A stretch of 64,000 nt of DNA from Anodontia alba (Eukaryota; Mollusca; Bivalvia; Lucinida; Lucinidae). A model generated the notes under the pieces. That model worked only from the letters and a program-made list of their open reading frames with translations. It did no database searches and had not been told where the DNA came from. The stretch lies in contig OZ024831.1 of the NCBI GenBank assembly GCA_964016985.1, positions 78,284,263 to 78,348,262 of the forward strand, given 5' to 3'. Positions 981 to 61,669 of the stretch are shown piece by piece (within the stretch, counting starts at the first letter, position 1; each line of letters starts with the position of its first letter). The position numbers were made by a program, and so were the translations under genes.

Positions 981-1119
981 CTTTCTAAGTGTGAAAGAAA
1001 ACTCGGCATTACAGCCAAGACAATTTGTGACTATGTTATTGTCCATCCACTTCTCTGTAACATGGAGTTTGTGTTGGTGTGCAAGGCGGTCTGTCTTCTG
1101 CCATAAAGTATCCTTCTCT
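981..1119 (-). CDS. FYCO1: FYCO1-like exon: start of FYVE zinc finger
   Basis: A 139-base exon, acceptor TTTACAG at 1120 and donor GTAATG at 980. It opens with one base completing a lysine codon, then 46 codons: EKDTLWQKTDRLAHQHKLHV, then TEKWMDNNIVTNC, LGC, NAEFSFTLRK. The CxxC pair and EFSF-T-RK are the first zinc-ligand pair and following strand of a FYVE domain. The conserved RHHCRxCG should start the next exon, beyond position 1, and the exon stops exactly where that would begin (phase 0). FYVE domains bind PI3P on endosomal and autophagic membranes. The usual WxxD motif here reads W-M-D-N, so the acidic residue is one place early. The incoming phase matches the exon at 29554-29672. Confidence 0.85.
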
Positions 1120-10102: not shown

Positions 10103-11654
10103 CTACTCAAAGTTTACTAAGCACCAAAAGTTTGACGTGTTATTTGGGAAATTGTTTCTAACATTTTTGTGAGATTTCCTTTTGATATGAAGCATTATTA
10201 TTTTGAGACGGTCCCCTGTGTGTATACTAGCCCAACTGAACAGCAGTAATTTTGTGCAAGGCATGGAAAGTGGGTTACCCTTCATTTTCATGCCATTTGA
10301 CGCTCCTTGTTAGAGTACCTAACACGTGTTGAAGGGCAAATTTTCAATTCAGGTATGTAACCCCTGGGTAATTGATTTAATATGGCTAATGTAAATGTAA
10401 GACGACATCTGTCTGAAGCAGAAATGTGGCGAGCTGTGGGAATGGTGGAGCAAGGGGCAATCCACCGTCAAGTAGGGGACGTCTGATGTGCACCACACTG
10501 TGATAACCAGAGCCAGGTCAAGGTTTCAGCGGTATGGCACACCAGTCAGACGTCACGGTGGTGGCAGAGAAAGAGCTACATCTGCAGCGCAAGACAGGAT
10601 TTTAGTGATTCAAGCACGCAGAAACTGTTTTTCAACAGCATCCCAGCTTCTAATTGACCTTCAGAAGGTCTCCGGGGTCAATATTTTGACTCAAACCATT
10701 TGGTCAAGGTTACATGAAGGTGGTCTGCGCTCGAGAAGACCTTGCATATGCATCCCATTGACTCGGAATCACCGCAGAGTATGGTATGAATGGGCCATGG
10801 ACCATGTTCCTTGGACTCTTGGCAACTGGAGGCCTGTCCTTTTTACAGACGAGTCTCGATATTGCCTTGACTTCACCGATAGGCATGCTAGGGTGTGGCG
10901 AAGACCAGGAGAGAGGCTATATGCAGACAATATTGCTGAGCAAGACTGTTATGGAGGGGGCTCAGTGATGGTTTGGGGCCGAATCAGTTGGGATGGGAGT
11001 ATTGACCTCTGTGCCCTTCACCGTGGCACATTGACCACACAACAGTATAGGGATGACATTCTGGATGTCCACATAAGGCCGTATGCAGACGCAATTGGAG
11101 ATCCCTTCATTCTAATGGATGATAACACCCATCCTCACACTGCCCATGCCATCCAGGAGTATCTTGAAAGGGACGGTATCGAGCGTCTTGACTGGCCCGC
11201 TCACTCTCCAGACTTAAATCCTATTGAACACATCTGGAATAGCTTACAGACTGCAATATCAGCTCCTCAAGTCCAACCAAGAAGTATTCAAGAGCTTGGT
11301 GCCATGCTTGTTCAAGAATGGGACAATATGACACAAGCGTCCATTAGAAACCTGACAGGAAGCATGTTATTGATAGCAATGGGTCACATACCCAATATTA
11401 AAGCAAGATTAGGTCTCCTCTTCAAGTTTTAAACTGATTTCGACTTTTTCACTCTCTATTAAAAACACACATTTTCTGTGTTGTCATAATCAAGGGTTAA
11501 AAGCAACAATAAAACCGTAACAACATCTGAAATACCAACCAGAATCATCAAAGATAAGATCAAACTATTACATATCCAAATTTCAACTCTTTATCCCAAC
11601 CAAAACTAAAATTATGAATCCATCATCTTTTGGTGCTTAGAAAACTTTGAGTAG
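10103..11654 (+). mobile_element. Tc1-like DNA transposon inserted in DIRS copy A
   Basis: 28-bp terminal inverted repeats at 10103-10130 and 11627-11654, each reading CTACTCAAAGTTTWCTAAGC then ACCAAAAG from outside in, with one mismatch. A TA flanks the right end; the left target is now TT. DIRS gag sequence lies on both sides, so this insertion is younger than the DIRS copy. It carries one transposase gene. Confidence 0.88.
10382..11432 (+). pseudogene. Tc1-family transposase, one frameshift
   Basis: Starts MANVNVRRHLSEAEMWRAVG, a helix-turn-helix N-terminus that stops at TGA 10484. Two bases appear to be missing there; the second part then reads open from about 10488 (HHTVITRARSRFQRYGTPVR) to TAA at 11430. 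Motifs: VLFTDESRYCL (first Asp), ILMDDNTHPH (second), HSPDLNPIEHIWN (Glu), with 34 residues between the last two: DD34E, typical of Tc1. Apart from the single shift near codon 34 no damage is visible, so this is one of the youngest coding elements in the window. Confidence 0.9.
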
Positions 11655-19650: not shown

Positions 19651-20767
19651 TGTTGTCATAAATTTGACATTATCAGGGATTAATTATAAAATTTCTGTGA
19701 CCTTGCCTCTACCAAATATTATCAAAATATGTCTGAGGGTATCAAAGTTATGCAGCGCACAAGATTTTGACTTCAAAGGAGATAATTACATAACGAAGAA
19801 AGTGAGAGTTGCTTGCGAAAGTGAGAGTTGTCTCTTGCACGTGACATGCCTACAGGTCCTCCTCTTCATTTCTATCAAACATTATCATATTATCTCAAAC
19901 AGTATGGGAGTTATTGCCTGCACAAGATTTTGGCTTCAGGGAAGATAACTACTTAAATAAGAAAGTGACAGTTGTCTCCCTTGCATGTGACATGCCTACT
20001 GGTCCGCCTCTTCATTCCTACCATATATTACCAAAATATGTCTAAAGGTATCAAAGTTATGGAATGCACAAGGATGAGTACAATTTCTGCTTCAGGGGAG
20101 ATAACTACATAACAAATAAAGTGAGAGTTGTCTCTCTTGCACATGACACACCTACTGGTCCTCCTCTTCATCCCTGCCAAATATTATCAAATTATCTCAA
20201 ACAGTATGGGAGTTATGGCCTGCACAAGATTTCAACTTCAGGGGAGATAACTACATAATGAAGAAGTGAGAGTTGTCTCTCTAGCATGTGACATGCCTAC
20301 TGGTCCTCCTCTTCATTCCCACTAAATATTACCAAAATATGTCTAAGGGTATCAAAGTTAGGGAGTACACAAGGATGAGTCTACAACTTCTGCTTCAGGG
20401 GAGACAACTCACAACGAATGAAGTGAGAGTTTCTCTCTTGCATGTGACAGGCCTACTGGTCCTCCTCTTCATCTCTACCAAATATTACCAAATTATCGCA
20501 AACAGTATGGGAGTTATGGCCTGCAAAAGATTTCGGCTTCAGGGGAGATAACTACATAATGAAGACAATGAGAGTCGTCTCTCTTTCATGCCACACGCCT
20601 ACTGGTCCTCCATTACATTCCTACCAATTATTAGCGAAATATGTCTAAGGGTATCAAAGTTATGTCTAAGGGTATCAAAGTTATGGAGCGCACAAGGACG
20701 TGCGTCTACGGACGGACAGACGCCATGCCTATCGCTATATCCCCTGAACCTATTGGTCAGGGGATAA
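19651..20767. mobile_element. tandem array element, unit about 150 bp, with terminal hairpin
   Basis: About seven units, each with TACTGGTCCTCCTCTTCAT, ACCAAATATTATCAAA, GGCTTCAGGGGAGATAAC and AGTGAGAGTTGTCTCTCTTG. It ends with TCTACGGACGGACAGACGCC, then the hairpin CCCCTGAACC / GGTCAGGGG and ATAAAAA. The same family fills 30236-32047. The left end is not clear here. Confidence 0.8.
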
Positions 20768-22198: not shown

Positions 22199-24207
22199 AA
22201 CAAGCAAATTCCATAGGGAATTTATGTCCCCCGCCTTATTTTTATTTGAGCTGTTAAAAATGGGTAAGTTAACCAGAGGACCATTGGTCCTGTATCACTT
22301 ACCTAAGTATTGAAGCAGAAACCAGTGATAAAAAATAATTTCAGGATTCTGAAAGAACCACAGGCATATCTTCAGACCATCCTTAAAGCACCTATAAAGT
22401 TTCAAAATGATCAGCTTAAAACTGTGGTAGGAGTTAAGGGGACAAGGTACCTACTCCCTATACGCTTCTGTAGTATTAGAACTCAAAAAATGTCTAAGAT
22501 AAAAATGCGGAAAAAGTGATAAAAGATTATTTCAGGATTCTGAAAAATCCACATGCATATCTTCAGGCCATCCTAAAAGCCCATGTAAAGTTTCAAACAG
22601 ATCGGCCAAAATCTGTGGGAGGAGTTAAGGGGACAAGGTACGTACTCCCTATACACTTCTGTAATATTAGAACTCAAAAAATGTCTAAGTTCAAAATGTG
22701 TAAAAAGTAATAAAAAATAATTTCAGGATTCTGAAAAAATCACATGCATATCTTCAGACCATCCTTAAAGCACCTGTAAAGTTTCAAAAGGATCGGCTTA
22801 AAACTGTGGTAGGAGTTTAGGGGACAAGGTACCTATTCCCTATACGCTTCTGTAGTATTAGAACTCAAAAAATGTCTAAGTTAAAAATGCGGAAAAAGTG
22901 ATAAAAAACTATTTCAGGATTCTGAAAAAATCACATGCATATCTTCAGGCCATCCTTAAAGCCCATGTAAAGTTTCAAAAGGATCGGCCAAAAATTGAGG
23001 GAGGAGTTAAGGGGACAAGGTACCTACTCCTTATGCACTTCTGTAATATTAGAACTAAAAAAATGTCTAAGTTAAAAATGCGGAAAAAGTGATAAAAAAA
23101 TATTCCAGGATTCTGAAAAATCCACATGCACATCTTCAGGCCATCCTAAAAGCCCATGTAAAGTTTCAAAAGGATCTGCCAAAAACTGTGGGAGGAGTTA
23201 AGGAGACAAGGTACCTACTCCCTATAGACTTCTGTAATATCAGAAATCAACAAGCAAATTCAGTGAATTTTTGTCCCCCGCCTTTGAATTTTGTTTTGAG
23301 TGGTATAATTTCTAGCAGATAAAAAGAAACTAATTATTTATTATTATGTCTCTAAGTTAAAATGTGGAAAAAGTGATAAAAAATTATTTCAGGATTCTAA
23401 AAAATCCACATGCATATCTTCAGGCCATCCTAAAAGCCCATGTAAAGTTTCAAACGGATCGGCCAAAAACTGTGGGAGGAGTTAAGGGGACAAGGTACCT
23501 ACTCCCTATACACTTTTGTAATATTAGAACTCAAAAAATGTCTAAGTTAAAAATGCGGAAAAAGTGATAAAAAATTATTTCAGGATTCTGAAAAATCCAC
23601 ATGCATATCTTCAGGCCATCCTAAAAGCCCATGTTAAGGTTCAAAAGGATCTGCCAAAAAATGTGGTAGGAGTTAAGGGGACAAGGTACCTACTCCCTAT
23701 AGACTTCTGTAATATTAGAACTCAAAAAATGTCTAAGTTCAAAATGTGTAAAAAGTGATAAAAAATAATTTCAGGATTCTGAGAAAACCACATGCATATC
23801 TTCAGACCATCTTAAAAGCCCCTGTTAAGTTTCAAAAGGATCAGACAAAAACTGTGGGAGGAGTTAAGGGGACAAGGTACCTACTAAAAATTCGGAACCA
23901 CGCACCACGGAAAACCGAAAACAGTGTCCCTCTGCTTTTCTTCGAAATGGCGGGGGGACAAAAAATGTCTAAGTTCAAAATGTGTAAAAAGTGATAAAAA
24001 AAAATTTCAGGATTCTGAAAAAAAACACGTGCATAAATTCAGACCATCTTAAAAGCCCCTGTTAAGTTTCAAAAGGATCGGACAAAAACTGTGGGAGGAG
24101 TTAAGGGGACAAAGTACCTACTAAAACTTGGGAACCAGGCACCACGCGCCACGCAAAGCCGAAAACAGTGTCCCTCCGCTTTTCTTCCAAAATGCGGGGG
24201 ACAACAA
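22199..24207. mobile_element. tandem array element, unit 191 bp, nine units, nested in hAT
   Basis: The left end has the small hairpin AAATTCCATAGGGAATTT followed by ATGTCCCCCGCC; the right end is AATGCGGGGGACAACAAG, so TGTCCCCCGC and GCGGGGGACA are inverted. Units start at about 22326, 22516, 22707, 22898, 23089, 23372, 23563, 23754 and 23993, each with ATTTCAGGATTCTGAAAAA, GGCCATCCTAAAAGCCCATG and GGGACAAGGTACCTACTCCC. A second left-end sequence (AAATTCAGTGAATTT, GTCCCCCGCC) at 23250-23285 and a second right end near 23950 show a smaller copy or recombination inside. Confidence 0.85.
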
Positions 24208-24429: not shown

Positions 24430-24725
24430 CCCTGCTGAGGTCCCGTGGGCTGGGTGGCCTAGTGGTTAGTGCACTCGACTTTCAAGCGGGATATCGTGGG
24501 TTCGAATCCCGCTCGGGTCGAGACAATTTTCAGTCTATTAGTATTCATGCCCTGGGTTGAGTATAAAGTGGACAGGGTGGCGCTTGGTGACAGACAGCAG
24601 CACCAAGTGTGCATGGGTGATCCATGAAAGCAAGGCTGTACAAATACATGTACATAACAATCACCGCTGCCTAGGGTGCCTGGTAGCGTTAAAAGTCTGT
24701 AGAACAACAACAACCCAGCAGAGGT
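24430..24725 (+). mobile_element. tRNA-Glu-like SINE (SINE-C) with 12-bp target duplication
   Basis: The insert 24442-24713 is flanked by CCCTGCTGAGGT and CCCAGCAGAGGT (10 of 12 identical). The head has an A box (TGGCCTAGTGG) and a perfect B box (GGTTCGAATCC); a CTTTCAA anticodon-like loop gives TTC, as in tRNA-Glu. The acceptor arms do not pair, so it is not a functional tRNA. The tail is GTGCCTGGTAGCGTTAAAAG, TCTGTAGAACAACAACAACC. The tail alone recurs at 63147-63175. Confidence 0.88.
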
Positions 24726-29553: not shown

Positions 29554-29672
29554 TTGATAAGTTTAACAAGTTTCTTCTTGAGCTGGTCTAAATCTTCTCT
29601 TAGTTCTTCTATCTCTCTGTCTTTTTCCAGTATTGTCTCTTCTACTTTCTGTTTTTCACCTTCTAAGTCATG
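29554..29672 (-). CDS. FYCO1: FYCO1-like exon: coiled coil before FYVE
   Basis: A 119-base exon; acceptor ATTTACACAG and donor GTAAGT. Translation in phase 0: HDLEGEKQKVEETILEKDRE, IEELREDLDQLKKKLVKLI plus two bases of a lysine codon. Charged heptads without Pro or Gly breaks point to a coiled coil. It ends in phase 2, which fits only an exon entering in phase 2, as the FYVE exon at 981-1119 does; the joined KLIKEKDTLWQK is FYCO1-like. Both splice sites are squeezed between repeats: an array hairpin starts 12 bases into the downstream intron, and the CCTCTTGT next to the acceptor is the end of another repeat cap. Confidence 0.85.
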
Positions 29673-30235: not shown

Positions 30236-32047
30236 ATCCCCTGACCAAACCACCATTTCTAAATTTAGTGTATTTGAATCGATATCATCGATATATTGAA
30301 CAAGAGCAAAGTAATGTGAGCATGAGACACATCTACTGTTTGATACCAATGCCTCTACCAAATATTATCAAAATATGTCTAAGGGTATCAAAGTTATGGA
30401 ATGCACAAGATTTTGGCTTCAGAGGAGATAACTACATAATAAAGAAGAAAGTGAGAGTTGTCTCCCTTGCATGTGACACACCTACTGGTCCTCCTCTTCA
30501 TCTCTACCAAATATTATCATATCATCTCAAACAAGATTTCGGCTTCAGGAGTGATAATACATAATGAAGAAAGTGAGTGTTGTCTCTCTTGCATGTGACA
30601 CACCTACTGGTCCTCCTCTTTTTTTCTACCAAACATTATCAAAATATGTCTAAGAGTATCAAAAATATGGAGTGCACAAGATTTTGGCTTCAGGGGAGGT
30701 AACTACATAATGAAGAAAGTGAGAGTTGTCTCTCTTGCATGTGACACCCCTACAGGTCCTCCTCGTCATTTCTACACAACATTATCAAAATACGTCTTAG
30801 AGAATCAGTTATGGAATGAACAAGATTTTGGCTTCAGGGGAGATAACTACATAAAAAAAGAAGAAAGTGAGTTGTCTCTCTTGCATGTGATATGCCTACT
30901 GGTCCTCCTCTTAACCTCTAGCAAATATTATCAAATTATCTCAAACAGTACGAGAGTTATGGCCTGCACAAGATTTTGGCTTCAGGGGAGATTATATAAC
31001 GAAGACAGTGAGAGTTGTCATTCTTGCATGTGACATACCTACTGGTCCTCCTCTTCATTCCTACCAAACATTATCAAAATATGTCTAAGGGTATCAAAGT
31101 TATGGCATGCACAAGATTCCTACTTCAGGGCAGACAACTATGCAAACAATAAAGTGAGAGTCATCTTTCTTGCACGTGACATGCTACTGGTCCTCCTCTT
31201 CATCCCTACCAAATATTATCAAATTATCTCAAACAGTATGGCAGTTATGGCCTGCACAAAATTTCGGCTTCAGGGAAGATAACTATATAAGGAAGACAGT
31301 GAGAGTTGTCTCTCTACTGGTCCTCCTCTTCATTCCTACCAAACATTACCAAAATATGTCTGAGGGTATCAAAGTAATGGAGCACACAAGGATGAATACA
31401 ATTTCTGCTTTAGGGGAGATAACTACATAATAAATAAAGTGAGAGTTCTCTTGCATGTGACACACCTACTGGTCCTCCTCTTCAACCCTGCAAAATATTA
31501 TCAAATTATCTCAAACTGTATGGGAGTTATGTCCTGCACAAGATTTTGGCTTCAGGGGGGATAACTATATAACAAAGACAGTGAGAGTTGTCTCTAGTGC
31601 ACGTGACATGCCTACTGGTCCTCCTCTACATTCCTACCAAATATTATCAAAGTATGTCTAAGGGTATCAAAGCGCACAAGGATGAGGCTACAATTTCTGC
31701 TTCAGGGGAGGTAACTATATAATGAATAAAGTGAGGGTTGTCTCTCTTACACCCAACACACCTACTAGTCCTTTTCTTCATCCCTACCAAATATTATCAA
31801 ATTATCTCAAACAGTATGGGAGTTATGGCCTGCATAAGATTTCAGCTTCAGGGGAGATAACTACATAATGAAGATGGTGAGTTGTCTCTCTTGCACGTGA
31901 CATGCCTACTGGTCCTCCTCTATATTCCTACCAAATATTATCAAAATACGTCTAAGGGTATCGAAGTTATGGAGCACACAAGGATGCGTCTACGGACGGA
32001 TGGACACCATGCTAATCGCTATATCCCCCGAAATTGGTCGGGGGATA
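30236..32047. mobile_element. tandem array element, unit about 145 bp, about 12 units
   Basis: Near the left end ATCCCCTGACCAA (30236-30248) is the exact inverse of the hairpin arm TTGGTCAGGGGAT that ends the sister element at 20767; here the right end has ATTGGTCGGGGGATAAAAA. Units carry TACTGGTCCTCCTCTTCAT, TATGTCTAAGGGTATCAAAG and GGCTTCAGGGGAGATAACTA. The end has TCTACGGACGGATGGACACC before the hairpin. Confidence 0.85.
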
Positions 32048-32699: not shown

Positions 32700-34464
32700 A
32701 CAAGAGGCCCATGGGCCATGGCTCGCTCACCTGAGTGACAGAGCCACTGCAGATATGCAGATGTTATGCAACATTTTTCCAATCCTATCATTACAACTAA
32801 AGAAAAGATCATCATTTAAGCAGTTCTTAGTTTTGAAGAAGAATATATGAGCATGACAGTCAGTGGAGTGTGATTATTTGAACAAACTCTTAATTACATT
32901 TCAACAGTAGGATTAATGTGAAATTTGGTGGAAATTTGCTTCTGAAGAGTTGTTTAACAAATCATGATTTTATACATGTAAACAGCACAGGGGCAGGGAA
33001 ATATAATAAATGTTAAAAAGACTGCCTTTGGAAATGAAGAACTCACTATGGATTAGAAAATGGGAGTCTAGGTTTTATTGAGACTCTTCATAAGCAGTAA
33101 TAAAGTTTGCAACATTGCTTACTGTGGTTTTGGAGGAGCTGTCATTTAAAAAATTCATTTTTTTTTTTAAATTTAAAGTTACCATGACAGCCAAACAAAA
33201 TGGTCACTGGCAATAAAACACATAAACTGGGTAGACAATCATCCAATAATCATAACTGACAAATATGGTTCACATCACTTCACTGGTTATGGAGAAAATG
33301 CAATTTAACCACTTTCTCATTATGTATATGGGAGTTTTCTGTTGCCATGGCAACCAAACCAAGAGGACGATTGGCAGACTTTTAGCTCTTTTCAATTGCC
33401 CTTACCCATTTACTATTTGCAGTAGTCATTAATTTTTTATTTTTTTTTTAAATTTAATGTTGCCATGGAAACCAAACAAAATGGCCACTGATCATGAAAC
33501 AAACAAATTGGGTAGATAATCATCAAATGGTCATAATTGCTAAATATGGTTCACATCACTTCACTGGTTATGAAGAAAATGCAATTTAACCAGTTTTCCA
33601 TTATAAGTCTATTGGAGCTTTCTGTTGTCACGGTAACCAAGCCAAGAGGCAGATCACCATAATTTCAGCTATTTTGAATTGTCTTTACCCAAGCAACATT
33701 TGTACAAAATTAGAGTAAAACTGCTACAGTAGTTTTGGAGGAGATGTCATTTAAAAAATTCCTTTATTAAAATTTAATGCTGCCATGGCAACCAAATAAA
33801 ATGGCGATTGGCCATAAAACACATAAACTGAGTAGACAATTATCATAAGTGCCAAATATGGTTCACATCACTTCACTGGTTACGGAGAAAATGCACTTTT
33901 TGTGTTGAGGTTTTATGGCCCAGTCAACCCAATGGGGTCATGTCGAGCGCGGTCAGTTTACCTAACCACACGTTTGCTGGGCAGGCTTAGTCCTCTAAGC
34001 GGTTAACAAGTATTGTGCACATTCTTTCGCCAGAAACTGACAACTGCCCTTCTTGAATCAGCGGAAGGGAGAGAATGACCGTAGAAAATATTTCATGATC
34101 AGTCTCCATGAAAGAATGTTGCCGACCTCAGCGGGGGTTGAACCCGCGACCTCCTGGTCTCCATTCGGACGGCGCATCCAACTGAGCCACCGAGGCCGGC
34201 AATTTAACAATTTTCCCATTATGTCTATGGGAGCTTTGTGTTGCCATGGCAACCAAACCAAGATGCAGAGCATCATTATTTTAGCTATTTTTAAAGGCTC
34301 CTTATCAAGCAACATTCTTACTAAGTTGGGGACAAATTGCTTCAATGGCTTTGGAGGAGTTGTCGTTTGAAAGTATTAACAGACAGACAGACAACCGGAC
34401 GGATGGACGACGGACAAAAAGTGGTCACTATAGCTCATCCTGAGCATAGCACAGGTGAGCTAAA
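32700..34464. mobile_element. capped element split by a SINE
   Basis: The left cap ACAAGAGGCCCATGGGCC, GCTCGCTCACCTGAGTGAC, close to those at 49585 and 61730. The body has three to four copies of a unit with GCCATGGCAACCAAACCAAG, GGTTCACATCACTTCACTGG and GAGAAAATGCAATTTAACC. The end has ACAGACAGACAGACAACCGG, CACTATAGCTCATCCTGAGC and ACAGGTGAGCTAAAAA. Confidence 0.8.
33895..34196 (-). mobile_element. SINE-A copy
   Basis: Minus orientation, with the tail TTTTGTGTTGAGGTTTTATG at the left and a complete tRNA-like head (ACTGAGCCACCGAGGCCGG) at the right. It sits inside the unit phrase ATGCAATTTAAC; a short GCA-TTT target duplication is plausible but decayed. Confidence 0.88.
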
Positions 34465-35479: not shown

Positions 35480-38320
35480 GATTTTTGTATAAATTTTAAA
35501 GCCCTGCTCCCCAGCGGCAATGTTTCTTTCAAGCATCATGATGGTTTGAACTGAATCTTGAAAGAGGGTCACCAAAGAACAATTCTGCCAAGTTATATTG
35601 AAATCGATCCAGTGGTTTCTAACAAAAAGATTTTTAAAATGTTTTATATAGCTATATAGGGAAAATAAGCCCCACCCCCTAACAGCCATGTTTTTTGACG
35701 AATCATGACAGCTTGAACAAACTTGGTAGAGGGTTACCATAGGAACATTCCTGCCAAGTTATATCGAAATCGGTTCAGTGGTTTCGGACAAGAAGATTTT
35801 TAAAGTTTTCTATTTAGATATGTAGGGAAAATAAGCCCCACCCTTAGCAGCCATGTTTTTTGACAAATCACGATTGCTTGAACAATCGTGGTAGAGGGTC
35901 ACCAAGGAAACATTCCTGCCAAGTAATATTGAAATCAGTCAGATGTTTCTGACAAGAAGAATTTTAAAGTTTTCTATACAGATATATAGGGAAAATAAGC
36001 CCTGCCCCCTGGCGACCATGTTTTTTGACGTATCATGAGGGCGCGAATAATCTTGGTAGAAGGTCACCAAGGCGACATTCCTGCCAAGTTAGAATGAACT
36101 CGATCCAACGGTTTCTTACGAGAAGATTTTTAAAGTTTTCTATATAGATATATATAGAAAATATGCCCCGCCCCCTAGCGGCCATGTTTTTTGACGAATC
36201 ATGATGGCATATACAATCTTGGTAGAGGGTCACCAAAGAAACATTCCTGCCAAGTGATATTGAAATCGGTCGAGTGGTTTCTGACAAGAAGATTTTTAAA
36301 CTTTTCTATATAGATATATAGGGAAAATAAGCCCCACCCCCTGGCGGACATGTTTTTTGACAAAACATGATAACCTGAACAAGCTTGGTAGAGGGTAAAC
36401 AAGGGAATAGTTCTGCTAAGTTATAATGAAATCGGTCCAGTGGTTTCTGACAAGAAGATTTTTAAAGTTTACTATATAGGGAAATATAGCGCCACCCCCT
36501 GGCAGTCACGTTTTTTGATGAATCATGAAGACTTGAACAATCTTGGTAGAGGGTTACAAAAGAAACATTCCTGCAATGTTATACTGAAATCGGTCCAGTG
36601 GTTTCTGACAAGAAGATCATTAAAATTTTCTATATAGATACATAGGGAAAATAAGCCCCGCCCCCTAGCGGCCATGTTTTTAGACAAATCATGACGGCTT
36701 GAACAATCTTGGTAGAGGATCACCAAGAAAACTTTTTTGCCAAGTTATATAGAAATCAGTCCAGTGGCTTCTGACAAGATGATTTTTAAAGTTTTCTATA
36801 TATATAGATATATAGGGAAAATAAGCCCCGCCCCCTGGCGGCCATGTTTTTTGACGAATCCAAATGGCTTGAACAATCTTGGTAGAGGATCACCAAAGGA
36901 ACATTTCTGCAAAATTATATGGAAATCGGTCTAGTGGTTTCTGAGAAGAAGATTTTATAAGTTTTCTATATAGATATATAAGGAAAATAAGCCCCGCCCC
37001 CTGGCGGCCATGTCTTTTGACGAATCCAACTGGCTTGAACAATCCTGGTAGAGGAACACCAAAGGAACATTTCTGCAAAATAATATGGAAATCGGTCCAG
37101 TGGTTTCTGACAAGATGATTTTTTAATTTTTCTATATAGATATATAGGGAAAATAAGCACCCCTCCCCCCTCCACGCCCCCCCCCCCCCCCCCCCCCCGC
37201 CATGTTTTTTGACAAATCCTAATGGCTTGAACAATCTTGGTAGAGGATCACCAAAGGAACATTTCTGCAAAATAATATGGAAATCGGTTCAGTGGTTTCT
37301 GACAAGAAGATCTTTTACGTTTTCTATATAGATATATAGGGAAAATAAGCCCCGCCCCCTGGCAGCCATGTTTTTTGACGAATCCAAATGGCTTGAATAA
37401 TCTTGGTAAAGGATCACCAAAGGAACATTTCTGCAAAATAATATGGAAATCGGTTCAGTGGTTTCTGACAAGAAGATTTTTTAAGTTTTCTATATAGATA
37501 TATAGGGAAAATAAGCCCCGCCCCCCTGGTGGCCATGTTTTTTTTTTTGACGAATCCAAATGGCTTGAACAATCTTGGTAGAGGATCACCAAAGGAACAT
37601 TTCTGCAAAATTATATGGAAATCAGTCCAGTGGTTTCTGACAAGATGATTTTTTAAGTTTTCTATATAGATATATAGGGAAAATAAGCCCCGCCCCTGGC
37701 AGCCATGTTTTTTGACGAATCCAAATGGCTTGAACAATCTTGGTAGAGGATCACCAATGGAACATTTCTGTAAAATTATATTGAAATTTGTCCATTGGTT
37801 TCTGACCAGAAGATTTTTAAAGTTTTCTATATAGATTATATAGGGAAAATAGGCCCCGCCCCCTGGCAGCCATGTTTTTTTAACGAATCCAAATAGCTTG
37901 AACAATCTTGGTAGAGGATCACCAAAGGAACATTTGTGCAAAATTATATGGAAATTGGTTCAGTGGTTTCTGACAAGAAGATTTTTTAAGTTTTCTATAT
38001 AGATATATAGGGAAAATAAGCCCCGCCCCCTGGCAGCCATGTTTTTTGACGAATCCAAATGGCTTGAACAATCTTAGTAGAGGATCACCAAAGGAACATT
38101 TCTGCAAAATTATATTGAAATCGGTCCAGTGGTTTCTGACAAGAAGATTTTTAAAGTTTTCTATACAGATATATATGGAAAATAAGCCCCGCCCTCAGGC
38201 GGCCATGTTTTTTGACGAATCCAAATGGCTTGAACAATCTTGGTAGAGGATCATCAAAGAAACATTTCTGCAAAATTATATGGAAATTGGTCCAGTGGTT
38301 TCTGACAAGAAGATTTTTTA
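35480..38320. repeat. tandem array, unit about 170 bp, about 17 units
   Basis: The unit contains TCTATATAGATATATAGGGA, AAATAAGCCCCGCCCCCTGG, CGGCCATGTTTTTTGACGAA, TGGCTTGAACAATCTTGGTA, GGAACATTTCTGCAAAATTA and TCGGTCCAGTGGTTTCTGAC. Later units (36.8-38.3 kb) are more alike than earlier ones, suggesting recent spread from that side. One unit has an interrupting C-run of about 20 bases at 37176-37198, and another a T-run at 37540. Confidence 0.93.
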
Positions 38321-38492
38321 AGTTTTTAGCTTAAAAATCTATGTTTAGCTCCTGTGACCTAGATATGCAATGGACTGGAACCATTTGAACAACTTTGAAA
38401 GAGGACCAACCAAGGACCATTCCTGTGAAGTTTGGTCAAATTCCAATCAGTGGTTTAGAAGGAGATGTTGTTTAAAGATTGTGGACGGACGG

Positions 38493-44240: not shown

Positions 44241-44429
44241 TGTCATAGTTTGTTTACTCTACCTCTTAGTGTCATTGGTAGGTTATGTTCAGCAAGTGTA
44301 GCACTTCCTGGACATCTTCTTTTTATATCATGAAAACTTAAAACAAAGGCCCAGAGCAATTCAAATGCAAACTCACCTGGATATGCTAACTCCCAGTAAT
44401 GATCAGTGATTGATTGTTGGAAGTAACAA

Positions 44430-47400
44430 ATAGAAGTAACTTAGCAATTCAGTGCCAACTCACTGGGATACTCTGAGATCTATGAACTTAGCTATGAACT
44501 TAGCAAACCAATACAAACCTCAACTAGACTCTCTGAGATCTATATGCTTAGCAATCCAAGACAAACCTCAACTTGACTCTGAGATCTATATACTTTGCAA
44601 TCCCAGACAAACCTCAACTGGACTCTCTGAGATCTATGAACTAAGCAATCCAATACAAACCTCACCAGAACTCTCTGAGAGCTATGAGCTTAAAAATTCA
44701 AATACAAAGCTAAACAGGTATCTCTGAAAGCAATGAGCTAAGCAATTCAATGCAAACCTCACAAGAACTCCCTGAGAGCTATGAGCTTAGCAATTCAACA
44801 GAAGCCTCACCTGGACTCTCTGAGATCTATGAATTTAGCAATTCAATACATATGGACTCTCATAGAGCTATGAGCTTAGTCATTCAATAGAAACCTCACC
44901 TGGACTCTCCGAGAGCTATGAGCTTAGCAATTCAATAGAAACCTTACCTGGACTATCTGATATATATGAATTTAGCAATCCAATACAAACCTCAAATGGA
45001 TTCTCTGAGAGCTATGAGCATAGCAATTCATTTGAAAACTCACCTAGACTATGAGCTTTGCAAATCAATACATGTACAAACCTCATCTGGGCTAACTGAA
45101 AGCTATACATTTAGCGATCCAATACATACCTCCCTGGACTGTTAGAGAACTATAAGCTTAGCAATTTAATAGATAGCTCACTTGGGCTCTCTGAGATCTA
45201 TGAGTTAAGCAATCCAATACAAACCTCTCCTGGACTCTCTGACAGCTATGAGCAAGCAATTAAATAGAAACCTCACCCAGACTCCCTGATATTTAGGAAT
45301 AAGCAATCCAGTATAAACCTCTGAGATCTATGAATTTAGCAATTCAATACATATGGACTCTCATAGAGCTATGAGCTTAGCCATTCAATAGAAACCTCAC
45401 CTGGACTCTCTGAGAGCTATGCGCTTAGCAATTCAAAAGAAACCTCACCGGGACTATCTGATATATATGAATTAAGCAATCCAATACAAACCTCATATGG
45501 ACTCTCAGAGAGCTATGAGCTTAGCAATTCAATAGAAACCTCACCTGGACTATCTGCAAGCTATAAACTGAGCAATCCAATATGAACTTCACATGGATTC
45601 TCTGAGAGCAATGAGCAAGGCAATTTAATTTACACCTCACATGGACTCTCAAAGAGCTATGAGCTTTGCAATTCAATACAAACTTCACCTGGACTGAGAG
45701 CCAGGAGCTTTGATATTCAATAGAAACCTCACATGGACTCACTGAGATCTATAAATTTAGCAATCCAAAACAAACCTCACCTGGACTGTCTGAGAGCTAT
45801 GAGCTTAGCAATTCAATAGAAATCTAACCTGGACTCTCTGAGAGCTATGAGCATAGCAATTCAATGCAAACCTCACCTGGTCTCTCTGAGAGCTTTGAAT
45901 TTAGCAATTCAAATGAAAACTCACCTGGATTCTCTGAGATCTATGAATTAAGCAATCCAATATAAAGCTCTCCTGGATTCTCTGAGAGCTACCAGCTAAG
46001 TAATTTAATAGAATCCTCACCTGGACATTTTTTTTCAACAATTTAGCAATTCAATGCAAACCTCCCCTGGACTCTCTGGGAGCTATGAGCTTAGCAGTTC
46101 AATAGAAACCTCACCTTGATTTTCTGAGAGCTATTAGCTTAGCAAATCAATGCAAACCTCACCTGGACTCTCTGAGATCTATAAATTTAGCAATTCAACA
46201 GACACCTCACTGGACTAAGATCCATGAATTTAGCAATCGTGTACAAACCTCAAATGGACTTTCTGGGAGCTATGAGTTTACCAGTTCAATAGAAACCTTA
46301 TCTGGACTCTCTGAGAGCTAAGTTTTCAACAGAAACCTCACCCCAATTCGCTGAGCTATGAATTTAGAATTTCAATAGAAACCCCGCACACATTCTCTGA
46401 GATCTATGAATTTCACAATCCAATAAAAACCTCACCTGGGCTCTCCAAGAGCTATGAACTTAACAGAAACCTCACCTGGACTCTCAGAGATCTACAAATT
46501 TAGCAATCAAATATAAAGCTCACCATGACTCTCTGAGATCTATAAATTTAGCAATCCAATACATAACTCATTATGATGTTAGCAATTCAAGACAATCCTT
46601 ACCTGCACTCTCTGACAGTTATAAGCTTAGCAATTCAACAGAAACCTCACATGGACTCTCTGAGATCCATGAATGTAGCAATCCAATACAAACCTCAAAT
46701 GGACTCTCTGAGAGCTACGAGCTTAGCAATTCAATAGAAACCCTAATCTGGACTCTCTGAAAGCTATGAGCTTAGAGATTCTATACAAATCTGACATGAA
46801 TTCTTTGATAGATATGACCTTAGCAATTCAATACAAACCTTACCTGGACTCTCTGAAAGCTATGAGCTTAGCAACTGAATACAAAACTCTCCTGGACTCT
46901 CTGAGAGCTATGAGCTTAGCAACTGAATAAAAACCCCACCATGACTATCTGATAGCTATGAGCTAAGAAATTCACTAAAATCCCTACTTTGACTCTCTGA
47001 GAGTTATGAGCTTAGCAATTCAACAGAAACCTCACCTTAACTCACTGATATCTATGAATTTAGCAATTCAATACATACCTAACCTAGATTCTCTGGGATC
47101 TAGAAATTTAGCAATCCAAAACACAAATCACTGTGAGCTTAGCAATTCAATACAAACCTTACCTGGACTCTCCAAGAGCTAAGAGTTCAGCAATTCAATA
47201 GAAAACTCACCTGGACTCTCTGAGATCTATGAATTTAGTTATCCAATACAAACCTCACATGGACTCTCTGGGAGCAATGAGCTGGACAAATTCAGTAGAA
47301 ACCTCACCTTGACTATCTGAGATCTATGAATGTAGTATTCCAATCCAAACCTCAATTTTACTCGCTGAGAGGTATGTGTTTAGCAATTCAATATAAACCT

Positions 47401-47499
47401 TACCTAGACTCTCTGAGATCAATGAATTTAACAATCCAATACATACCACACCTTGACTCTCTGAAAGCTATGAGCTTAGCAATTTAATAGGTACCTCAC
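44430..47499 (-). repeat. 48-bp tandem array derived from an exon/intron junction, about 60 units
   Basis: On the gene strand a typical unit is 18 bases equal to the end of the adjacent exon (AGCTCTCAGAGAGTCCAG) followed by 30 bases that copy the start of its intron (GTGAGGTTTCTATTGAATTG, then CTAAGCTCAT). At least five units outside the exon keep the 16-base junction GAGAGTCCAGGTGAGG exactly, and many differ by one or two bases. Two unit types alternate irregularly (GCTCATAGCTCTC and TTCATAGATCTC). Every typical unit holds an in-frame TAA if read through from the exon. The array touches the exon's donor directly. Confidence 0.9.
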
Positions 47500-47547
47500 C
47501 TGGACTCTCTGAGAGCTCTCTTGTTCTTTTTGTAACTTTGCTTCTAT
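47500..47547 (-). CDS. FYCO1: FYCO1-like exon: 16-residue coiled-coil segment
   Basis: A 48-base exon with acceptor GATTATTTCAG and donor CAG/GTGAGG; translation IEAKLQKEQESSQRVQ, phase 0 on both sides, a coiled-coil composition. It fits between the phase-0 ends of the exons at 61598-61669 and 29554-29672. The donor is the first of some 60 similar sequences stretching 3 kb into the intron (44430-47499). Identification rests on splice signals, phase and composition, as the peptide is too short for a family match. Confidence 0.75.
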
Positions 47548-47726: not shown

Positions 47727-48960
47727 AAACTAGAAATGTGTCAATATGACACAGATTCCCCCGCCCAGGGCCATCCTCACCTACACTCAGTCATTTTGCA
47801 AAAAATGAAGTTGAAAAAAAGGGCCATAACTCTCATAATAATTGGCAGATTTTACCCAAAATCGAACTTGACCTATATTTTATGATAATATATCTGTGTA
47901 TAGAATATGAATCCAATACACTAATCTTCTTTAAGAAAATATTGAAAGGAAAACATTTTTTGAAGGTGAAAAAGGGCCATAACTCCCATAATAATGGGTG
48001 GTTTTTACCGTAAAACAAATCTTACCTCTATCTTATGATTATATACCTGTGTATTAAATATGAATCCAATACACTAATGTTTTCAAAAGATATCAAATGG
48101 AAACTATTTTTCAACGTTGAAGAAGGGCTATAACACAAAAAATTGTTGGTAAATTTTAAACTTAATTGAACTTGACCTATATTTTATGATTATATGCTCG
48201 TGTATAAGATATTAATCCAATTCACTAACCTTTTCAAAAGCTATGGAACGGAAACCATTTTTTGAAGCTGAAAAAAGGGCCATAACTCCCAAAATAGTTG
48301 GTGGATTTTACCCTTAATTGAACTTGACCTACATTTTATGATTATATACCTGTGTATAAAATTTGAGTCCAATATACTAATTTTTTTAAAAGATATTGAA
48401 CAAAAACCATTTTTTCAACTATTTATCAATGTTGAAAAAGGGCCGTACCTCTAAAAATAATTGGTGGATTTTACCCTAAATCGAATTCGACCTACATTTT
48501 ATAATTATATTCTCGTGTATAAAATATGAATCCAATACACTAATCTTTTCAAAAGTTAGGGAATGGAAACCATTTTTCAAAGTTGAAAAAGGGCCATAAC
48601 TCCCAAAATAATTGGTGGACTTTACCCTAAATCAAACTTTACCTATATTTTATGATTATATACCTGTGCAGAAAGTTTGAATCCAATACACTAATCTTTT
48701 CAAAAGATATTGAACGGAAACCATTTTTCAAAATTGAAAATTTTTCAAAGTTGAAAAAGGGCCATAACTCCCAAAATAATCGGTGGATTTTACCCTAAAT
48801 TGAACTTGACCTACATTTTATGATTATATACCTGTGTATAAAATTTCAATCCAATCTTTTCAAAAGATATCGCATGGAAACCATTTGTGTTACAAATGGG
48901 ATGGATGGACAACAGTGATACTATATGCACCCATTGAAAATGGCGGGGGCATAAAAAAGG
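47727..48960. mobile_element. tandem array element, unit about 152 bp, about 7 units
   Basis: The left end ACTAGAAATGTGTCAATATG, ACACAGATTCCCCCGCCC; the right end ATGCACCCATTGAAAATGGC, GGGGGCATAAAAA, so CCCCCGCC and GGCGGGGG are inverted. Units: AAAGGGCCATAACTCCCA, GGTGGATTTTACCCTAAAT, TGATTATATACCTGTGTATA, ATCCAATACACTAATCTTTT. A GGATGGATGGACAACAG microsatellite precedes the end. Confidence 0.85.
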
Positions 48961-51214: not shown

Positions 51215-53668
51215 GATTAACGTGCAGGTACAGGGGCGACATCCACATCAGTGGGCCCCCTTCCAGACAGCTGGCTTGCTGCACTTCTCACACCAGATCT
51301 CCAGGTACGTCTATCACGAGGGTTGATAGCCGAGAGCTTCCACTCTCTGCAATCCCTCTCTGTCAGCTGTTTCCATGTCATTTTGGGCCTCCCAGGCCCA
51401 CGCTTTCCACCAACTTATATGTCAAAGGCTGTCTTGATTGCACCACTGGAGCGTTCCACATGTCCATACCATCGAAGTCTTCTCTCCTTCAGAATGAGGA
51501 CCAGATCCTCAATGCCAAGCCGCACAAGTAGCTCATTGAACCTGGTGGTGACAATGTCTTGAGGCCTGACATTGCAGATCTGTCTGATCATTGCCCTGTC
51601 ATTTCGCTGCAGATGCTGGAGGTTCGGCTTTGTCAATGGCCAAATCTCGGTGGCATGGAGCATTGCCCTCTGCACACAAGAGCTGTACACATGGCCACAT
51701 GTTTTGAAAGAGAGGTGGCGTGAAGAGAGGACTGGTAGCAGATCCTTGAACTTCTTCCAGGCGTTTTTCACACGTGTTGTGGTTGAAAGTTCACAGCCAC
51801 CTGCTGCTGAGAGCATGTCTCCTAGGTAGCAAAAAGAAGCTACCACCTCAAGCTTGTCAGGTCCGACCTGGACTTCCTTCTGTGGTCTGCCATCCAAGGG
51901 GCGTGCAGTTCTCTGGCACCGTGTACATCTATAGTCAGGGTCCTTTTTCGAGCCCACAGCATTTCTTGTGCACCCAGTGCTTGCAGCCATTGCAGAAGAT
52001 GCTGTTGCTGCCCACTCCAGTGCAACAGACGGCGCACAGAAACTCGCCTGAACTCTGCAGGAGGTCCAGTCCCGTATCGCAGATCATAATCTTTGTCTTT
52101 CCTGCATTTACTCTCAGTCCTTTCTTCTCCATTGCTTCTTTCCATGTCAAGAGCCTCCTGACACATTCCTCAATCTATTCAGCGATGATAACAAGGTCAT
52201 CAGCATAGAGGTCTTCCCAGGGTAACCAGAGCGGAACTCATGATAAGGCTTCAAGCACAATGATGAAGAGCAGTGGGCTGAGTTCTGATCCTTGGTGAAC
52301 ACCAACGTTCAGTTCAAACTCTTCACTGTACCCCTCACCAACACGGACACAGCTCTGCGCATTTGCATACATCCCCTGCACTAGTCGCACAATCCACTCC
52401 TCCACACTAAGTTTTCTCAGCGCCCACCAGATGACCTTCCGAGGTACTCGATCAAACGCCTTCTCCAGGTCTGTGAAAGCCATGTAGAGTCTTCTCTTGC
52501 AACTACTGACAACAAAGATTGCGTCTGTAGTGCCTCTGCCTGGGACGAAGCCAAACTGGAAATCGTCGATTGACACCAACTGTCTGATGAGGCCGTCCAC
52601 AATCTTCTCCAGGATTTTCATAACCTGCTCTGTCAGCTTGAGACCATGGTAGTTGCCCCTTTCCAATGCATCCCCTTTTCCCTTGTAGAGGCAGACAATG
52701 AAACTCTGCTCCCAGTCAGAGGGTACCTTGCCATCACGAATGATTGCGAGGTCACGGATCATGGAGGCGCCCATGTCACCGGCCGCTCTTATCATCTCCA
52801 CCACTATGCCTGATGGGCCCGGTGCTTTGCCTGCAGTCATCTGCGAGATAGCCTTCTTAACCATATCAATGGTGATTGGGATGGGCGAGCCTTCCACTGG
52901 TGATTGATATGAAAGGTGGTCTGGGTCCCAGTCAAACTCAACATTGAGAAGTCTTTGGTAGTGCTCCAGCCAGGCCTTGTGCTTTGAGTCTTCGCTCATT
53001 GACATCTCTCCTGCATCATTCTTCACAGGTCTGTCACCAACAACATCAGTGTTCTCTCTTCTAAACTGGTTAGCAAGGCAGTAGACTTCTGAAGACTTGG
53101 GGTCAATATTCTCGTAGACCTTCTTGTCAACTTCTTGATGAGCATGGTGCACTGCATGTCTGGCATTTTGTTTGGCTGCATCGTATGATGCCCTAGTGCC
53201 TTTACCAGCCTTCCAGGCCTTGAAAGCTGTCCGCTTGGCAGCAATGGCCTTTTCCACGTGTTCGTTCCACCACCAGGTTTCATGATGCCAACAGTGTGGC
53301 CTAGTTGTGCCACATACCTCCTCAGTTGTCTTGAGCAGTCCAGTCTTGATGTTGTTCCAGATATCCTCAGTGGCCCCATCAGCTACACCTGCAGATGTGC
53401 TCACATGCAAGTTGAAGACCTCCTGGAAATGACTGCTTGTTTGAGGGTCTTTAAGCTTCCAAACTTTGAGGCGAGGGGTGAACTTGCGCTTAGATTTTGC
53501 AGGCACATCAATCCTCATGTCACATACAAGCAGCTGATGTTGCAGAGCTACTTCCTCACCAGGGATGACTTTTACATCTGTGACAAGTTTGCGCATGGTC
53601 CTACGGAAAAGGATGAAGCATCTGTGTGGCTATGTTTCCAGACTTGTATGTGATGAGATGAGTGAGTT
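51215..53668 (-). mobile_element. LINE copy 3, 5'-truncated, flanked by a long direct repeat
   Basis: Minus strand from about 53665 (end of the endonuclease domain) to the 3' tail CTGCACGTTAATCAAAAATC, TGATTATGAT at 51215. The flanks share 59 identical bases (51100-51158 and 53670-53728) and similar text for about 40 more, consistent with a target duplication near 100 bp. It is the least damaged of the three copies. Confidence 0.9.
51230..53620 (-). pseudogene. LINE copy 3 polyprotein (endonuclease end, RT, PHD-like finger, C-terminal domain)
   Basis: One frame is open from 53596 to 52238, about 450 codons. Blocks: MRKLVTDVKVIPGEEVALQH, TAGKAPGPSGIVVEMIRAAG, FIVCLYKGKGDALERGNY, FGFVPGRGTTDAIFVV, YMAFTDLEKAFDRVPRKVIW, GVHQGSELSPLLFIIVLEAL. 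A small deletion then gives a stop at EALS; LYADDLVII follows in another frame near 52210, then GLRVNAGKTKIMI, the C4HC3 finger (51916-52036), and FCYLGDMLSAAGGCE to LRWYGHVERSSGA in a third frame down to 51415. All catalytic motifs survive, spread over three frames. Confidence 0.88.
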
Positions 53669-54064: not shown

Positions 54065-54866
54065 TTAGACCTCTGGATTCTTTATCAAGGTTTTCCTCTG
54101 ATTTGGCCCTGTGATCTACTTTTCGACCCAAAGCGACCCAGTTTCCAACTTGACCTAGAAATCATCAAAACAAACATTTTGACCAAGATTCATGATGATT
54201 GCTTGAAAAATGTGACTTCTAGAGTGTTAACAAAGTCAGCCTTTGATTTGGCCCCATGACCTTGTTTCTGACCCAAAGTGACCAAGCTAAGACCTTGGCC
54301 TAGAAATCATCAAGACAAACATTTTGAGAAAGATCCATGATGATTGCTTCAAAAATGTGACCCCTAGTGTGTTTACAAGGTTTTATGCTGATTTGGCCTT
54401 GTGACCTAGTTTTTGACCCCAAGTGATCAAGTTTAAAACGTGACCTAGAAATCACCATAACAAACATTTTGAGCAAGATTCATGATGACTGATTCAAATA
54501 TGTGACCGCTAGAGTGTTAACAAGTTCTTCCTTTGATTTGGCCTGATGACCTAGTTTTTTATCCAAAGTGACCCAGTTTTGAACCTGACCTATCAGTACA
54601 AATGTTTTGAGCAGGGTTCATGATGACTGCTTCAAAAATGTGCCTACTAGAGTGTTAACAAGGTTTTCCCTTGATTTGGCCTGGGGACCTAGTTTCTGAC
54701 CCTAAGAGACCCATTTTTGAACTTGACCTAGAAATCATTAAGAGAAAGACCCCAGGGGCATGGTTGGCAGGTTTAATGTAGGGTAACACTAACATTGCTA
54801 CATACTAAATATATAATCTGTAGGCCTCATGGTTTAAGAGAAGATTTTCTTAAGGTTTTCCCAATA
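54065..54866. repeat. array with about 145-bp units
   Basis: About five units with GATTTGGCC, GTGACCTAGTTTCTGACCC, TGACCTAGAAATCATCAAGA and CATTTTGAGCAAGATTCATG. The same phrases occur at 49360-49560, before the capped element, so that element probably inserted into this array. Confidence 0.75.
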
Positions 54867-58007: not shown

Positions 58008-58337
58008 AAGGAAGAAGTGTTTGTTTGTGTTGAGGTTTTACGGCCCAGTCAACCCAATGGGGTCATGTTGAGCGCGGTCAGTTTACCTAACCACACGTTT
58101 ACTGGGCAGGCTTAGTCCTCTAAGCGGTTAACCAGTATTGTACACATTCTTTCGCCAGAAACTGACAACTGCCCTTCTTGAATCAGAGGAAGGGAGAGAA
58201 TGACCGTAGAAAATATTTCATGATCAATCTCCACGAAAGAATGTTGCCGACCTCGGCGGGGGTTGAACCCGCGACCTCCTGGTCTCCAGTCAGACGGCGC
58301 ATCCAACTGAGCCACCGAGGCCGCAAAGGAAGAAGTG
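58008..58337 (-). mobile_element. SINE-A, complete copy, 12-bp target duplication
   Basis: The insert is flanked by AAGGAAGAAGTG at 58008-58019 and 58326-58337. Minus orientation: the head at 58325 has an A box (TGGCTCAGTTGG), a B box (GGTTCAACCCC) and a tRNA-like length between them; the body is about 230 bases; the tail is CCTCAACACAAACAAAC. This is the reference copy for the family. Copies at 1-132, 13323-13614 and 33895-34196 are 85-95% alike by eye. Confidence 0.95.
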
Positions 58338-59234: not shown

Positions 59235-59559
59235 CTAACTGTATATGATTGATTGTGTTGATTGTGTTGGGGTTTAACGACACGTCAACCCTTGAGGGTC
59301 ATTTTGTGTCGTCTCCCAGAGAAAGGTAGAAAAGAGATAGAAGAGAGAGTAAAGGAGATGAAAGAGAGGGACAGGGAAGAAAGAGGAACAGGAAAGAAAG
59401 TGAAGAAACAGAAGAAATAAAAACATTCCCCCTCTACCCTTACCCACTACAAGGATAGCAGGCCTTGCCCAACTGTAAGCCAATATCAGTTGGACGCCCC
59501 AGTGATGTAAGATACACAGCACCTTCGCACCACCCGACCACCCCCCTAACTGTATATGA
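59235..59559 (-). mobile_element. SINE-B, complete copy, 14-bp target duplication
   Basis: CTAACTGTATATGA at 59235-59248 and 59546-59559 flanks the insert. Minus orientation; its tail (GGGTTGACGTGTCGTTAAAC, CCCAACACAATCAACACAAT) resembles the SINE-A tail (GGGTTGACTGGGCCGTAAAA, CCTCAACACAAACAAAC). Confidence 0.95.
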
Positions 59560-60144
59560 AGTTCCAGCTTGACTGGGTGTAAACTGTAGGGGGAATTAGC
59601 CAGAAACTAAAAATTAATAGAAATCTTCAAAGGGGTATAACTCTGCTAATATTTGGTGGACTGTAACCTTGAAATAATATGCACTGCTCCACATCATGGT
59701 CTAACTACAAATCAAGTCTCAGCTTGATCGGATGTAAACTGTAGGAGGAGTTAGCCAGAAACGAAAAGTCAACTGAAATTTTCAAAGAGGCATAACTCTG
59801 CTAATATTTGGTGGACTATAACCTCAAAACAATATGTGCTGCTCCACATCAAGGTCTAACTATATATGAAGTTTCAGCTTGATTGAATGTAAAATGTAGG
59901 AGGAGTTAACCGGAAATGAAAAGTTTACAGAAATTTTCTAAGGGGCATAACTCTGCAAACATTTGGTGGACTGTAATCCTGAAATAATATGTGCTGCACC
60001 ACATCATGGTCTAACTATATACCAAGTTTCAGCTTGATCGAATGTAAACTGTAGGAGGAGTTAGCCGGAAACGAAAAAGTTTACGGACGGACGGACGCCA
60101 TACCCCGTAACATAATACGTCCCGTTTTTTCAAACGGGCGTATA

Positions 60145-61597: not shown

Positions 61598-61669
61598 CTG
61601 TTGAAATTTATCTTGAAGGGACGTGTTTCTGGCTTCTTTTTCCGCTAACTCTTCTTCTAATGTTTGTAT
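61598..61669 (-). CDS. FYCO1: FYCO1-like exon: 24-residue coiled-coil segment
   Basis: A 72-base exon; acceptor TCTATTTTAG, donor CAG/GTATGTG. Translation IQTLEEELAEKEARNTSLQD then KFQQ, phase 0 at both ends, a coiled-coil pattern with hydrophobics at a/d spacing. It is the most upstream exon found here; those before it lie beyond the window or were missed. As with the 48-base exon, the assignment to the FYCO1-like gene comes from strand, phase, composition and order. Confidence 0.75.

Follow-up and report, generated by a model that had tools for sequence, protein, structure and literature searches.

How does a presumed splice donor come to be repeated some 65 times within the intron that it opens, and do the copies matter for splicing? 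The question is posed by a 48-bp minisatellite on the minus strand of a 64,000-nt stretch of the Anodontia alba genome, here called the window, whose first copy coincides with the end of a predicted coding exon. We consider it probable that this is a locus-specific minisatellite that arose by repeated tandem duplication of the exon's 3′ end together with its 5′ splice site, that it has since decayed neutrally, and that the donor next to the exon is the one in use. An earlier note on this DNA had read the array as a local amplification of the exon's own donor junction and had suggested neutral slippage, a splicing-factor sponge or an unproductive-splicing switch for an autophagy adaptor as its basis. 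The features of the array and exon are as follows, a slash marking an exon/intron junction here and below.

44355..47517, minus strand: 48-bp minisatellite (TRF, cyclic profile parse and sequence-only model)
47500..47547, minus strand: predicted 48-nt exon, phase 0/0, IEAKLQKEQESSQRVQ (sequence and exon-candidate scan)
47494..47502, minus strand: presumed true 5′ splice site CAG/GTGAGG, 8.38 bits by an approximate donor matrix
47181..47228, minus strand: copy 6, donor CAGGTGAGT, 8.91 bits, GT at 47210 (parse and donor matrix)
45895..45942, minus strand: copy 34, second array copy with CAGGTGAGT, 8.91 bits, GT at 45924
45330..45514, minus strand: copies 43-46, one half of the clearest block duplication
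44829..45013, minus strand: copies 54-57, the other half of the clearest block duplication

Geometry of the array and the predicted exon

Parsing with a cyclic profile and affine gaps divided the array into 68 copies running from 47517 to about 44355, of which 65 are regular (copies 0-64, 47517-44494); degenerate array fragments extend beyond copy 64 down to 44355. TRF found the 48-bp period that had been claimed, as two arrays (44490-46570 and 46572-47517), and a sequence-only model of the unit gave 67 matches inside the array. The array starts at 47517, 18 nt before the predicted exon ends at 47500, and continues into the intron. The parse confirmed that, as proposed, each unit combines 18 bases from the end of the exon with 30 from the start of the intron. 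Copy 0 (47517-47470) comprises the exon end and the first 30 intron bases, with the exon's last 18 nt (47517-47500) doubling as its first 18 positions, and it is identical to the consensus of one of two subtypes, A (described below), at 45 of 48 positions. The consensus unit includes CAGGTGAGG, the donor sequence of the predicted exon. GAGAGTCCAGGTGAGG occurs six times, once at the exon and five times further on, which bears out the claim of at least five unchanged sites. The clearest block duplication pairs copies 43-46 with copies 54-57 at a mean identity of 0.948 (best non-overlapping four-copy block pair, 0.859), and copies 46 and 57 have a 7-base deletion in common.

On the minus strand the exon reads TTTCAG/ATAGAAGC...GAGAGCTCTCAGAGAGTCCAG/GTGAGGTACC, with the translation IEAKLQKEQESSQRVQ in phase 0/0, and ends at the junction AGCTCTCAGAGAGTCCAG/GTGAGG; both the junction sequence and its coordinates are as previously claimed. 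It was evaluated with an exon scan combining a coiled-coil residue model with splice-site matrices; the donor, acceptor and coiled-coil residue tables of the scan were all approximate. A first scan with stricter splice-site cuts retrieved none of three exons (29672, 61669 and 47547), because their weak acceptors fell under the cut. The later scan used looser cuts and a softened acceptor matrix, set with the claimed exon coordinates already known, and the accompanying shuffle test applied the same looser settings to real and shuffled sequence. With these settings the 48-nt exon was the best phase-0/0 candidate in the 31.9 kb between 61598 and 29672. Its score was 25.4, the runner-up had 15.2, and the maxima of 60 dinucleotide-shuffled versions of the interval all fell short of 25.4 (mean 11.7, highest 19.0). 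The exons at 29672-29554, 61669-61598 and 47547-47500 ranked 1, 2 and 4 on the minus strand over 134 kb. Over 334 kb of that strand the 48-nt exon ranked 17th, most of the candidates above it being parts of the gene's giant coiled-coil exon or of its other exons.

The 48-nt exon is in frame with both neighbouring coiled-coil exons. Together, the best-candidate score and the shuffle result make it very likely that the predicted exon is real; 47500 is presumed from the sequence to be both the exon end and the donor in use. The possibility that the exon's first 30 nt are themselves a diverged repeat unit was rejected, as an ungapped comparison gave 7 of 30 identical positions, the chance level.

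A probable FYCO1-like host gene

The exons assigned to the host gene are listed below; negative coordinates and those above 64000 extend the window numbering into the flanks.

133903-129026, minus strand: 4.9-kb coiled-coil exon (in-frame join)
109213-109076, minus strand: further exon (in-frame join)
61598..61669, minus strand: preceding coiled-coil exon, 72 nt, phase 0/0 (rank 2 candidate in 134 kb)
29554..29672, minus strand: following coiled-coil exon, 119 nt, phase 0 to 2 (rank 1 candidate in 134 kb)
981..1119, minus strand: exon with the juxta-FYVE stretch and the first part of the FYVE zinc finger (sequence, Pfam)
-34719 to -34792, minus strand: second FYVE exon, outside the window (in-frame join)

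An eight-exon join, whose first junction is an assumption, gave 1985 codons without a stop between window coordinates 194086 and -34792. The resulting layout is a long coiled coil followed by a FYVE finger, the latter recognised by Pfam with E = 1.6e-15 in a translation that linked the 981..1119 exon with the 29672 exon on one side and the next exon beyond the window on the other. The three joined exons had no Pfam family over its cut-off among the 25 matches listed, and no convincing match to solved structures (best E = 0.052). Over 47 residues, the juxta-FYVE stretch and first FYVE part are 45% identical to a human FYCO1 end. A candidate exon at -92125 with EDRFHVISDEEI carries an F-x-x-I acidic motif resembling the FYCO1 LIR, whose residues F1280/I1283 are named in PMC10472876, which also gives the domain order of FYCO1 as RUN, coiled coil, FYVE, LIR and GOLD. 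Because it combines a coiled coil with a FYVE finger, the juxta-FYVE similarity and the candidate exon with the F-x-x-I motif, the host gene is probably FYCO1-like. The suggestion of an autophagy adaptor is supported in the form of an autophagy-adaptor-like gene, with its in-frame coiled-coil exons and FYVE finger.

Identity as EEA1 is possible; of the 15 solved-structure chains that matched the FYVE part, EEA1 came first (E = 5.7e-15) and none was from FYCO1. The candidate LIR exon at -92125 matched neither a Pfam family nor a solved structure. When the corresponding LIR and GOLD segments of human FYCO1 were searched for, they gave zero matches in 334 kb, and a search for GOLD residue patterns down to -130000 gave no match. 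Genome-wide there are five RUN domain matches, none of them on the gene's contig (C12), in a search that split exons may escape. Matches to GOLD_2, possibly not the model for FYCO1, were found on contig C3 only.

Probable local origin and decay of the copies

The genome searched comprised 1,862,613,979 bases in 317 contigs, and the match counts are lower bounds. A 20-mer spanning the exon end, donor and intron (two mismatches or fewer) had at least 31 matches, 30 of them within the array, and a reversed-pattern control had none in the genome. The remaining match is a single site on contig C15; about 6 matches are expected by chance in a random equiprobable sequence of genome size, and this site therefore needs no special explanation. 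An intron-side 22-mer had at least 22 matches, with 22/22 in the array and 0.45 expected by chance. A 548-base query matched at the array locus only, with one candidate place scored. Over 334 kb, the unit model, built from 26 of the 68 copies, placed 67 of 68 matches (E up to 1) in the array, the other being marginal (E = 0.19). These results (30/31 and 22/22 near-matches in the array, plus the 334-kb model) led us to reject a dispersed genome-wide satellite family. The relationship that the earlier note had set against its own reading, a 48-bp satellite elsewhere in the genome, was thus looked for and not found. Since nearly all near-matches in the genome lie within it, the array was very likely made at this locus, and both the geometry and the genome-wide patterns support a local amplification of the exon's own donor junction.

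Copies 1-64 have a mean identity to the consensus of 0.85 per position. Among copies 0-64, pairs are on average 0.706 identical, and this identity does not change systematically with the distance between them (lags 1-24). A near-star tree would give such a pattern, which points to a burst followed by decay. Nor was there a gradient of divergence along the array (Spearman 0.13, P = 0.29). Linked variants at unit positions 27, 33, 42 and 43 (0-based) define two subtypes, A (38 copies) and B (27 copies). Over the 25 positions formed by the 18 exon bases and GTGAGGT, neither subtype consensus differs from the exon. The subtypes alternate more often than in shuffles (39 changes against 31.4 ± 3.9, P = 0.034), and TRF scores a 96-bp period above the 48-bp period over 44490-46561; the lag profile has no clear period-2 pattern, and the signal of an A-B dimer is weak. 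The mean mismatch to the subtype consensus is 0.124 (JC 0.136), corresponding to an array age of about 14 to 136 million years if 1e-8 to 1e-9 changes per site and year are assumed. A structured RNA family was considered and rejected, one tRNA being the only match in the window at Rfam thresholds.

Copy 0 matches the consensus at 25/25 positions over the 18 exon bases and GTGAGGT, as does just 1/52 of the other regular copies that are gapless there. Its remaining 23 intron bases carry 4 changes from the overall consensus (Fisher P = 0.046) and 3 from its own A consensus (P = 0.10), so that the contrast between the exon/donor side and the intron side within copy 0 is weak. The intactness of copy 0 would be expected if the exon and donor were in use and under purifying selection; its statistical weight is modest.

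The 18 nt that exon and array have exactly in common would be predicted by either direction of origin, including one in which an older array supplied the exon with its 3′ end and donor, making this a satellite-derived exon end. We regard this order of events as unlikely. The product of site identities over the 25 positions is 0.021, meaning that a random copy at present divergence would match 25/25 with a probability of about 0.02, in keeping with the single such copy observed. These chances, about 50 to 1 against the capture of a copy with present-day divergence, argue that the exon seeded the array, although an exon end captured from a very young array may give the same pattern. The exon end also continues the coiled-coil pattern (judged by eye), and outside the array the genome contains no relatives of the unit except the one chance-like site. 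A different possibility is that the array is a coding repeat of the plus strand, where the consensus reads as an open repeat of 16 residues and the frames that run through the array reach 98 codons, the exon then being incidental. We rejected it on mismatch rates that are equal by codon position (0.125, 0.127 and 0.121); with 25 of the 30 indels in copies 0-64 not being multiples of three, it appears extremely improbable.

In the history that we favour, a stretch of 18 exon and 30 intron bases would have been duplicated in tandem, two subtypes would have arisen, and the array would have reached about 65 copies, some of this growth perhaps being in the form of A-B dimers. At least one block duplication would have followed, the copies otherwise decaying independently at neutral rates. 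The whole array would be intronic and the exon-proximal donor used, with selection keeping only the exon and donor bases of copy 0 and the later donors persisting as tolerated leftovers. Mistaken use of a later donor would lead to truncation at a TAA eight codons into the first copy and to RNA decay. Of all this, the sequence itself shows the geometry, the uniqueness, the pattern of decay, the reading frame and the stop; that the exon gave rise to the array, which donor is chosen and what becomes of mis-spliced RNA are inferred.

Donor content, splicing and known parallels

Over the donor, 58 of the 68 copies are gapless, and 41 of these keep GT. Donors of at least 6 bits are present in 23 of the 58, true donor included and hence 22 in the array, and 13, again counting the real one, score at or above its 8.38 bits. 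The presumed true donor is outscored by two array copies and equalled by ten. A previous count of about 60 donor-like sites was overstated. A stronger GTGAGT reported near 47207 is present as CAGGTGAGT, with its GT at 47210, and is not the only one, as the same sequence is found at 45924 and in a distal-edge fragment of the array at 44376. Sense-strand donors of at least 6 bits occur at 7.38 per kb in the array (true donor included) and at 0.23 per kb on the same strand of the rest of the window, with none on the array's other strand; the roughly 30-fold difference follows from the origin of the unit.

The donors are no better kept than the rest of the unit. The full donor 9-mer survives in 17.5% of copies, ranking 43 of 48 windows, and its columns vary independently of one another. 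Its substitution rate of 0.159 compares with a base-matched null of 0.142 ± 0.020, with 79% of null sets as low or lower. Without base matching, the donor 9-mer has a rate of 0.158 against 0.116 at other positions, and unit positions 0-24 (exon and donor) 0.138 against 0.107 for the rest, excluding the four subtype sites. Since 21% of base-matched sets are as high, we do not read the donor excess as selection against array donors, mild selection of this kind being possible. Donor positions in the repeat copies thus decay no slower than others, and a maintained sponge or switch of the type proposed is therefore not supported, whereas neutral slippage or exchange fits the decay pattern.

Read-through from the exon meets TAA as the 8th codon, in the first copy, as had been predicted. 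The stop is not preserved in each unit, contrary to the earlier description: only 44 of the 64 copies gapless there keep one. This leaves the argument unchanged, as the TAA of the first copy already truncates any read-through. The product of any array donor would likewise be truncated, so that no leakage should be seen in steady-state protein and the cost should fall on RNA alone.

A human precedent bears on these donors. The human gene IFI6 (6-16, G1P3) has a length-polymorphic minisatellite with in-frame products, whose unit of 12 bases departs little from the donor consensus itself and is repeated in about 26 copies that start near the end of a coding exon. According to PMC4526556, the repeat units of IFI6 serve as splice donors. 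This minisatellite was reportedly described by Turri, Cuin and Porter in 1995 (Nucleic Acids Res 23:1854), a paper cited in PMC4526556, PMC2572611, PMC2915984 and PMC3618361. The earlier statement that no case with this geometry had been described is thus contradicted by IFI6, as portrayed in PMC4526556, and the clam array becomes a striking further example of a kind already known. In both, the units carry splice-donor sequence and place tandem donors after the first, the use of these donors being putative in the clam. Unlike the IFI6 array, the clam array, found once in a single assembly, has a 48-bp unit that includes 18 exon bases, about 65 copies that average 15% from the consensus, and an in-frame stop in the first copy.

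By analogy with IFI6, U1 might engage several array donors, some transcripts becoming unproductive through the stop and lowering or tuning gene output. Such use would work without selection having kept the donors, and the necessary elements are present: the 22 array donors of at least 6 bits, the in-frame TAA of the first copy, and the human units reported as donors in PMC4526556. Two of the array donors lie within exon-definition distance, one at 47307 with 7.55 bits and one at 47210 that, with 8.91 bits, outscores the true donor, and this proximity makes low-level leakage plausible. We nevertheless find this rather doubtful as an account of the array, because the donors are not preserved and none of the first three array copies has a donor that reaches 6 bits, unremarkable as that is at the array-wide rate. 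A quite unlikely variant is a tolerated old ladder of about 20 usable donors, all of them yielding truncated messages, whose copy number and decay would set a standing level of unproductive splicing of the FYCO1-like adaptor; if true, gene output would be under a natural control that varies with the length of the ladder. A maintained U1 sponge, or a U1-binding platform that shields a long intron from premature polyadenylation, could draw on the dense sense-strand donors and on the 17.8-kb length of the intron from 47500 to 29672. Donors ranking 43/48, with a rate slightly over the base-matched null, give no sign of the purifying selection that maintenance would entail, and some 20 sites in one gene are probably few for a cell-wide effect; we judge this very unlikely. 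An array of neutral leftovers with a used proximal donor, our preferred reading, may still have a function as a splicing side effect, to which the decay pattern would lend no support.

Ordinary single-locus minisatellites form by tandem duplication and unequal exchange. The clam array resembles them in unit size, local origin, block duplication and copy decay, and differs in that the duplicated segment straddles an exon/intron junction, so that the first copy is partly coding and apparently pinned. Effects of minisatellite-sized repeats on splicing are reported for TERT VNTR6-1, with a 38-bp unit (PMC11830802), and for the MIR137HG VNTR, with two novel 5′ splice donors in exon 3 (PMC6692358). 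These likewise lie in spliced genes, and the portions of the two papers concerned do not describe their units as copies of the adjoining exon's own donor. Among the literature matches listed, in the parts available, there was no second donor-overlapping minisatellite besides IFI6; as far as those parts go, DDX3Y MSY2, MIR137HG and MUC1, considered as further cases, are different things.

The locus is in effect a natural experiment on the choice among near-identical tandem 5′ splice sites, which differ in strength by single substitutions in the same context, with a stop in the first copy to mark any splicing mistake. Use of the array donors, if real, would make the locus an independent second case alongside human IFI6, and a larger one. 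That some 20 strong decoy donors close to a 48-nt exon have apparently decayed neutrally suggests that the choice of donor depends on position and not on strength alone.

Candidate exon and donor at the 48-bp array

Two features of the minus strand lie in or beside the 48-bp minisatellite that adjoins the 48-nt exon:

45925-45981, minus: candidate cryptic exon within the array (57 nt, phase 0/0, without a stop)
44355-44387, minus: short and degenerate repeat unit on the array's distal edge, carrying CAGGTGAGT

The cryptic exon candidate has CAGGTGAGT at its end, and its total (the combined candidate-exon score) of 13.4 is unremarkable against dinucleotide shuffles of the surrounding interval. 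In the degenerate unit, CAGGTGAGT, with its GT at 44376, is a strong predicted donor immediately beyond the regular array.

Other tandem arrays

The 48-nt exon has arrays on either side, since a tandem array with a unit of ~151 bp, unrelated to the minisatellite, occupies 47806-48855 in the preceding intron, starting ~260 bases upstream of the exon. Further arrays, with units within ~122 to 237 bases, are found at:

4115-6279
19817-20664
22324-24204
30405-31973
35514-38326
54082-54738
59546-60077

By eye, the arrays at 19817-20664 and 30405-31973 have a similar unit in common.

Possible mobile-element frames and tRNA calls

Long open frames:

1998-2798, plus
10476-11432, plus
52238-53629, minus

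By eye, these frames resemble transposases of the mariner-like and Tc1-like kinds, along with a reverse transcriptase.

tRNA genes called by ARAGORN:

24448-24520, plus: tRNA-Glu(ttc)
34121-34198, minus: tRNA-Ser(gga)
58246-58323, minus: tRNA-Ser(gga)

Only tRNA-Glu(ttc) reaches the Rfam threshold among these three calls, neither tRNA-Ser(gga) passing it. The peptides around both tRNA-Ser(gga) calls are alike, so the pair may lie inside a dispersed repeat.
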